Positions 1-858 of a DNA stretch of 39,334 nt are shown here, one piece after another (position 1 is the stretch's first letter; each line of letters opens with the position of its first letter). The stretch is from Alphaproteobacteria bacterium (GTDB taxonomy: Bacteria > Pseudomonadota > Alphaproteobacteria > Puniceispirillales > UBA1172). The notes under the pieces were generated by a model. That model was not told where the DNA came from. It did not search any database and was given only the letters and a program-made list of their open reading frames with translations. The translations under genes were made by a program, and so were the position numbers. The stretch is taken from NCBI GenBank assembly GCA_016778985.1, contig JADHOM010000017.1, positions 1 to 39,334 of the forward strand, in the 5' to 3' direction.

Positions 1-719
1 TGTGATGTTTTGGTAATGTGCGCTGGTAGGTATACGCAATCATCCTGTACTTGTGCTTCTTTGTTATTGCTATACAGGATACCAGAATTAACTTTACCTA
101 AGGACAAGATTTCCCCTAGCCTCATGCCTGTGTTAACCGCCACATAGCACATATCAGCCATCCAATCGTCACCTGAGTCCTTGAAAAAGCCTATAAGCCT
201 AGCAACCTCGATATTAGTCAAGTATCGCTTTCGAGCGAATTCTTTAACATACCGTAGCTTTACTGGGTCAGACCGAAGCTTTGCCTCAACAGCAAACCCC
301 AAAATAGAAGACATAGCAGCTCCATAACGATTGATGCTTGAGCCTGACAGTCCCCTCTGTCTTTCATCATCAAGCCAATCGTAGATATGAAGAACAGTGA
401 TTTCACTGACCCTGAGTTCACTATGGTTACTGAATTCATCAAAGCGTCTAATCCTTGCAGTCGTGTTTTGTCGTGTCTTGGGATTAGGCCAAAGACGCTC
501 CTCGTGTTTCTCCATGAACGTAATTAGCTCTGACTTATAGACTCGAAGAGAGTTATGGGGGGTCGTTGTATTTGGGTCAGCTGATGTATACGGTTTTTTA
601 GTCAGCTGACTTTTTCTAGGGTCAGCTGATGAATTTCTGACCGATTCCGAAAGGTCAGCTGATATGGTCAGCTGATGTTCTACGAAAAATGACCCTTGTG
701 TGTAAATTGGCTCTGACAT
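1..719 (-). CDS. Tyrosine recombinase (phage/island integrase), C-terminus cut by window edge
   Basis: Site-specific recombinase expected to integrate or excise a mobile element. I translated it by hand: an ATG at 719 opens an uninterrupted frame of 239 codons to the window edge, behind a good ribosome site (AGGAG about 9 nt upstream). Residues 1-55 are a low-complexity leader. About 57-145 look like the N-terminal SAM-like core-binding domain (KSELITFMEKHEERLW, then LSGSSINRYGAAMSSIL). The catalytic domain starts near RYLTNIEVARLIGF and contains NTGMRLGEILSL, which holds the first catalytic Arg. The later H-x-x-R, H/W and Tyr residues would lie outside the window. The gene points away from the 3' end of tRNA-Arg, the usual layout of a tRNA-integrated island. 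The leader is encoded by DNA carrying five copies of one motif (see repeat). The family call is strong; whether this is phage or another island cannot be decided here. Confidence 0.88.
   Translation of the reverse strand, partial: MSEPIYTQGSFFVEHQLTISADLSESVRNSSADPRKSQLTKKPYTSADPNTTTPHNSLRVYKSELITFMEKHEERLWPNPKTRQNTTARIRRFDEFSNHSELRVSEITVLHIYDWLDDERQRGLSGSSINRYGAAMSSILGFAVEAKLRSDPVKLRYVKEFARKRYLTNIEVARLIGFFKDSGDDWMADMCYVAVNTGMRLGEILSLGKVNSGILYSNNKEAQVQDDCVYLPAHITKTS
576..675. repeat. Five copies of GTCAGCTGA inside the 5' end of the integrase gene
   Basis: GTCAGCTGA occurs at 576-584, 601-609, 621-629, 654-662 and 667-675. Four copies extend to GGTCAGCTGAT; the copy at 601-610 is the perfect palindrome GTCAGCTGAC. 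Spacings are irregular (25, 20, 33 and 13 bp). Three copies are read in one codon phase (SAD) and two in another (QLT), so the DNA is conserved rather than a peptide repeat. These could be recombinase arm-type sites, excisionase sites or a repressor operator; this is inference. Confidence 0.75.
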
Positions 720-734
720 TGGAGTTCTCCTAAG

Positions 735-781: not shown

Positions 782-858
782 TGGCGACTCCGGCAGGATT
801 CGAACCTGCAACCTGCTGATTAGAAGTCAGCTGCTCTATCCAGTTGAGCTACGGAGCC
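782..858 (-). tRNA. tRNA-Arg(UCU)
   Basis: Complete cloverleaf of 77 nt with encoded CCA. Acceptor GGCTCCG pairs with CGGAGTC (one G-T). The anticodon stem GCTGA/TCAGC closes the loop CTTCTAA, giving anticodon TCT. The T arm contains GGTTCGAATCC. The integrase starts 62 bp beyond its 3' end, so this gene is the likely attachment site. The anticodon-stem stretch CAGCTGAC also matches the repeat inside the integrase gene. Confidence 0.96.

Follow-up and report, generated by a model that had tools for sequence, protein, structure and literature searches.

In the classical lambda scheme, two domains of a single integrase recognize two different DNA codes. The textbook lambda-type arrangement has a separate arm-type sequence that is bound by the N-terminal domain (PMC2951348), and it is established that the anticodon loop and stem of a tRNA gene can supply the 7 bp overlap and the inverted core sites (PMC8371274). 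A tested case of attL sites that repress int is IntS of KplE1, located in a tRNA-Arg gene; the int expression region there overlaps with integrase sites, and IntS and TorI repress intS (PMC2951348).

Herein, we analyzed a window of 39,334 nucleotides, which is contig C28 of a 2.1 Mb alphaproteobacterial genome in 43 contigs, together with contig C38 of the same genome. The locus resembles KplE1 intS/attL (argW, Escherichia coli) in that the insertion is in a tRNA-Arg gene, int adjoins attL and points away from the tRNA, and the att region overlaps the presumed control region of int (PMC2951348). KplE1 has two distinct classes of sites, arm-type (P′) and core-type (O), which overlap the promoter and attL (PMC2951348); in the C28 element, by contrast, the copies lie in int codons 15–48 and repeat the core half-site. 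The two systems were compared here by layout. Like a lambda-type attP, the element has inverted half-sites around a 7 bp overlap, flanked on each side by several accessory sites that are confined to element DNA. However, the candidate arms of C28 and C38 echo the core, whereas lambda arm sites differ from core sites.

Haemophilus phage HP1 may be a partial precedent, since its attP (tRNA-Leu, U24159) has an anticodon-loop target, as in the C28/C38 element. It differs in having no array but only two imperfect core-like sites near int, computed as AAGGATTTT and AGGGATTAT, and an integrase of the P2-like family. Footprinting of HP1 reportedly identified core-like "type I" sites beyond the core itself.

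The closest annotated relatives of int are the integrases of T7-like temperate phages (the G078 prophage, Pelagibacter phage HTVC105P, and Pseudomonas phage LUZ100), with approximately 30%–40% identity in a part of the region that spans the core-binding and catalytic domains. In these phages, int has a single-subunit RNA polymerase gene as its neighbor, and no array was found at int in HTVC105P, the S35-C6 phage, or LUZ100. A search of the C28/C38 genome for a T7-like RNA polymerase, which had no positive control in the same genome, found none; thus, the element is not shown to be a T7-like phage. The complete genome G078 has a candidate prophage of 39.9 kb (G078:C1 384647–424558, loci L122 and L140), in which int lies beside a T7-like RNA polymerase gene and which is bounded by tRNA-Lys 5′-half cores.

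A repeat array in the coding start of the integrase gene

The features of the window are as follows.

3–719, minus strand: tyrosine recombinase (integrase, int), N-terminal 239 residues, running off the contig
575–585, minus strand: array copy 5, GGTCAGCTGAT (ATCAGCTGACC on the int strand), coding for SAD, with exact CAGCTGAC on the int strand
600–611, no strand assigned: array copy 4, AGTCAGCTGACT, a perfect palindrome, coding for QLT
620–630, minus strand: array copy 3, GGTCAGCTGAT, coding for SAD
653–663, minus strand: array copy 2, GGTCAGCTGAT, coding for SAD
666–676, minus strand: array copy 1, GGTCAGCTGAT, coding for QLT
717–732, minus strand: int start codon (717–719) and Shine–Dalgarno sequence AGGAG (728–732)
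782–858, minus strand: intact tRNA-Arg(TCT), the host target gene
782–850, minus strand: attL identity block, 69 bp in common with C38 (attR), from the tRNA-Arg D-arm to its 3′ end
812–834, minus strand: anticodon arm GCAGCTGACTTCTAATCAGCAGG, the putative core, with half-sites CAGCTGAC (826–833) and ATCAGCAG (813–820) around a 7-base loop

Because the window begins at a contig edge, only the first 239 residues of the integrase are encoded. Its GGAG Shine–Dalgarno sequence lies 7 nt ahead of ATG719, which is the sole in-frame ATG, GTG, or TTG before the core-binding domain; the next is at codon 69, inside the domain. The SAM-like core-binding domain starts from residue 65 (SAM_1/SAM_5 above the cut-off) and the beginning of the catalytic domain from residue 166, with the first catalytic Arg present before the ORF stops at the contig edge. 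The full catalytic R...K...HxxR...H...Y set was recognized by reading in the relatives L081 and L041.

The preliminary description had reported a motif present five times within 100 bp at the start of a tyrosine recombinase, in two codon phases. Both points were reproduced. GTCAGCTGA occurs five times, exactly, within window positions 576–675 of the plus strand (576–584, 601–609, 621–629, 654–662, and 667–675), and all five copies fall in int codons 15–48 of the minus-strand ORF. Three copies are read as TCA GCT GAC (SAD) and two as CAG CTG AC (QLT), so protein selection cannot explain the repeats; the remaining two frames of the segment are interrupted by stops. The Poisson probability of a given 9-mer occurring five times in 100 bp is approximately 2e-18, for a motif that was picked post hoc. 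Genome-wide, the 9-mer had 15 + 9 strand matches in 2.1 Mb, and those outside the C28 and C38 clusters were scattered and of roughly chance number.

The copies had also been called near-palindromic. Copy 4 is a perfect palindrome; the other four extend to GGTCAGCTGAT, which makes the palindrome only a partial one. As read on the int strand, these four are ATCAGCTGACC and copy 4 is AGTCAGCTGACT. No helical phasing was seen between the int-side copies, whose spacings are 13, 33, ~20, and ~25. Copies 2 and 1 form the pair spaced by 13 bp, and the 29 bp unit containing them (window 650–678) is 93% identical to C38 709–737. The presence of this two-copy unit at both element ends suggests a conserved paired site.

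No sigma-70-like promoter was found between tRNA-Arg and int, and int may be transcribed by read-through from the tRNA gene. A perfect 8 bp inverted repeat, CTAGTTAA-N6-TTAACTAG, was observed at 735–756 between tRNA-Arg and the int Shine–Dalgarno sequence; it is a possible operator or RNA hairpin. An Rfam search returned only the tRNA and a sub-threshold Plastid-ycf2 match on the tRNA antisense strand.

Two ends of one element at a tRNA-Arg gene

A genome search revealed a 72 bp match to the tRNA-Arg region at C38:857–928, in which 69 bp are identical and chromosomal sequence follows. A single intact tRNA-Arg, that is, an empty site, connects the flanks of C28 and C38 in two congeners (G130 and G131). 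The tRNA 3′ duplicate at C38 and these empty sites indicate that C28 and C38 carry the two ends of one element, with the intact tRNA-Arg adjoining int and the 3′ tRNA fragment at the opposite end. The central part of the element is absent from the assembly or lies on unlinked contigs.

A second motif cluster was present at C38:636–760, on the element side and beside the duplicated tRNA. It contains ATCAGCTGACC (647–657), GGTCAGCTGAT (712–722), GGTCAACTGAT (725–735), ATCAGTTGACC (~749–759), and two weaker copies, and no ORF of at least 70 aa was found across it. The host-side flanks carry no array. The motif therefore clusters in noncoding DNA at one end of the element and is missing from the host flanks, which bears out the earlier claim that the conserved object is DNA. 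When a pattern of three TCARYTGA motifs with gaps of 3–33 was searched in 136 genomes of the order, it was found only at the C28 and C38 ends.

Inside the 69 bp identity block, the core has the canonical geometry of inverted 5 bp stems around a 7-base loop (GCTGA-CTTCTAA-TCAGC), and the accessory repeats, which are candidate arm sites, flank it left and right but stay within element DNA. As read from the sequence, the repeats in int are the int-side half of a two-ended attachment-site array, arranged like attP arms that have been divided between attL and attR. The preliminary description had not included the C38 cluster, the tRNA duplication, or the identity of the motif with a half-site of the tRNA anticodon arm.

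In another congener, a stretch (L072 74–163, G132:C239) comprises the anticodon-arm portion of tRNA-Arg and approximately 45 bp with an 82% match to the C38 attR region. This attR-like relic is decayed, with no good array copies adjoining it, and a related element probably once sat at the tRNA-Arg locus of G132.

Array motifs and target tRNA half-sites in relatives

The 5′ half-site octamer of the tRNA-Arg anticodon arm, CAGCTGAC, is exact in all five int-side copies. For comparison, we used relatives whose integrases are approximately 30% identical to the C28 int. A virus (L081) and a SAR116 contig (L078) have a tRNA-Asn core with the half-site CCAAGCGATT, and L081 carries nine exact CAAGCGAT around int, one of which is the core. 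The G076 element has tRNA-Lys cores (GCAAGTGACTTTTAATCACT) at both ends and exact copies of CAAGTGAC inside each end; the Lys group partly carries the variant CATGTGAC. The array octamer equals the core half-site in the C28/C38 element, L081, and G076. Homologues lacking the motif, which the preliminary description named as grounds for refutation, thus exist in the literal sense, but they carry a motif matched to their own tRNA.

The half-sites of 27 tRNA types, taken from the loci analyzed, were then scored at 8/9 matches within element DNA, 350 bp to either side of the core. The C28/C38 element had 9 target tRNA-Arg sites versus an average of 0.42 across the 26 remaining tRNAs, L081 had 8 tRNA-Asn sites versus 0.12, and G076 had 6 tRNA-Lys sites versus 0.27; the target tRNA ranked first of 27 in all three. 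Among the counts listed, non-target tRNAs reached at most 5, and the host flanks had 0–1 target half-site matches. Weaker results were obtained for L082 (2 sites, rank 1), L079 (2, rank 2), L078 (2, rank 2), and G078 (1, rank 3). These counts suggest that the array repeats the target half-site, clearly in three elements with three targets and suggestively in four of seven. No description of arms or an array copying an anticodon half-site was found in the open-access literature.

Several candidates were set aside. The CACACCG repeats in the coding starts of L082 and L041 were left uncounted because they are mostly in one frame (Thr-Pro), and distant class-level integrases were too divergent. 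Peptide patterns detected no close int relatives in genome contigs, viral contigs, or plasmids. The motif triple in viral contigs (L089–L091) corresponded to two eukaryotic-virus-like coding tandem repeats and one phage, none with a C28-type integrase; the viral contig L091 (90–230, IMGVR_UViG_3300028887_000054) has approximately six ATGTCAGCTGACGA-like copies close to the 3′ end of a gene for an unrelated tyrosine integrase. L081 has a second repeated motif, CCACTCAGG, at 908–925, 1267–1284, and 1321–1338, with two copies in the int coding start in the same frame, and L078 has one similar copy just ahead of int. CCACTCAGG is possibly a site for another recombination protein.

The N-terminal segment of the integrase

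No Pfam domain was found before residue 65 of int. Residues 1–63 are unconserved, as are the N-terminal 50–60 residues across the integrase group. An AlphaFold run on the L081 integrase with five relatives stood in for the truncated int of C28. In the model, residues 1–50 had a pLDDT of ~31 and no secondary structure, and a two-domain recombinase followed. The best Foldseek matches were Tn1549 Int (residues 82–397), XerA, XerH, and Cre, with whole-chain TM-scores of ~0.4, so the domain orientation is poorly captured. Unlike lambda Int, the modeled relative has no folded arm-binding domain at its N terminus.

DISCUSSION

We consider it probable that the motif copies are integrase-bound arm sites that repeat the core-type half-site and are read by the same core-binding and catalytic domains. 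On the excised circle, the copies would lie on both sides of the tRNA-Arg core, the C38 side contributing approximately four good and two weak ones and the int side five. The integrase's own core-binding and catalytic domains would occupy these extra core-type sites, so that one DNA-reading surface would serve core and arms; the same domains are proposed for both because the integrase group has a disordered N-terminal segment instead of an arm-binding domain. Integrase at the core and arms would then allow a recombination complex to be assembled and cooperatively loaded. Since a disordered segment would tolerate the sites, the copies can sit in coding DNA, and integrase bound in codons 15–48 would sit on its own gene and probably hinder its own transcription. 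It is plausible, with KplE1 IntS as a tested precedent, that int expression is coupled to integrase binding, as the preliminary description had proposed, although with no sigma-70-like promoter found upstream such autoregulation has no mapped target. Binding by the integrase, cooperative assembly, and autoregulation are what we infer from the arrangement of the sites.

The copies could instead be ordinary lambda-like arm sites bound by the N-terminal segment, their likeness to the tRNA half-site being coincidental or a loose evolutionary tuning. Two-sided arrays confined to the element side are typical of lambda-type attP arms. However, the N-terminal segment is unconserved and predicted to be disordered, and the match switches with the target in three elements, each with the target first of 27 tRNAs, which makes this explanation unlikely.

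It is quite unlikely that the sites serve a second element protein, an excisionase/RDF or repressor controlling direction or int expression. The palindromic core TCAGCTGA would suit a dimer, a MarR gene precedes int in T7-like temperate phages, and RDF sites are often direct repeats (PMC7498355). But the motifs of the relatives, CAAGCGAT and CAAGTGAC, are non-palindromic and equal their own tRNA stem, which an RDF or repressor would have no reason to read, and the pelagiphages and LUZ100 have the MarR gene yet lack the array. These non-palindromic motifs, which track the tRNA, indicate that the palindrome in the C28 array comes from the tRNA-Arg stem, and a dimer operator is disfavored. Thus, of the earlier proposal, recombinase-associated sites fit the element-side arrays at both ends, whereas an excisionase site or operator does not fit well.

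Decoy or secondary landing sites, by which the array would titrate integrase or offer pseudo-cores while being dispensable for recombination, are improbable. Visits by integrase would be expected, as the copies equal the core half-site, but no copy pair was seen with the tRNA geometry (GCTGA, 7 bases, TCAGC), and the recurrence of the clusters on the element side of both ends, in sequence contexts unrelated to each other, suggests selection for position. A protein-level or chance repeat in the integrase N terminus is extremely improbable: the copies are inside the ORF, which translates them as SAD or QLT, but a repeat protein is ruled out by the two phases and the noncoding second cluster, and the triple motif occurs nowhere else in 136 genomes.

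Beyond our preferred reading of the copies as integrase-bound arm sites, we tentatively propose, at somewhat less than an even chance, that a group of tRNA-targeting integrases without an arm-binding domain writes its arms in the code of the core, so that the array alone would predict the target. If so, a change of target tRNA would mean that the whole array is rewritten, with half of it embedded in the integrase coding start in the C28/C38 element. With arms that repeat the core, a single domain would handle both tasks; this would be a simpler design and perhaps the ancestral one. The sequence rule that the array equals the target half-site would predict attB for orphan marine integrases, and it raises the question of how such elements change target. 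If the sites are bound, their position inside the gene would give the integrase a direct route to sense and limit its own synthesis.
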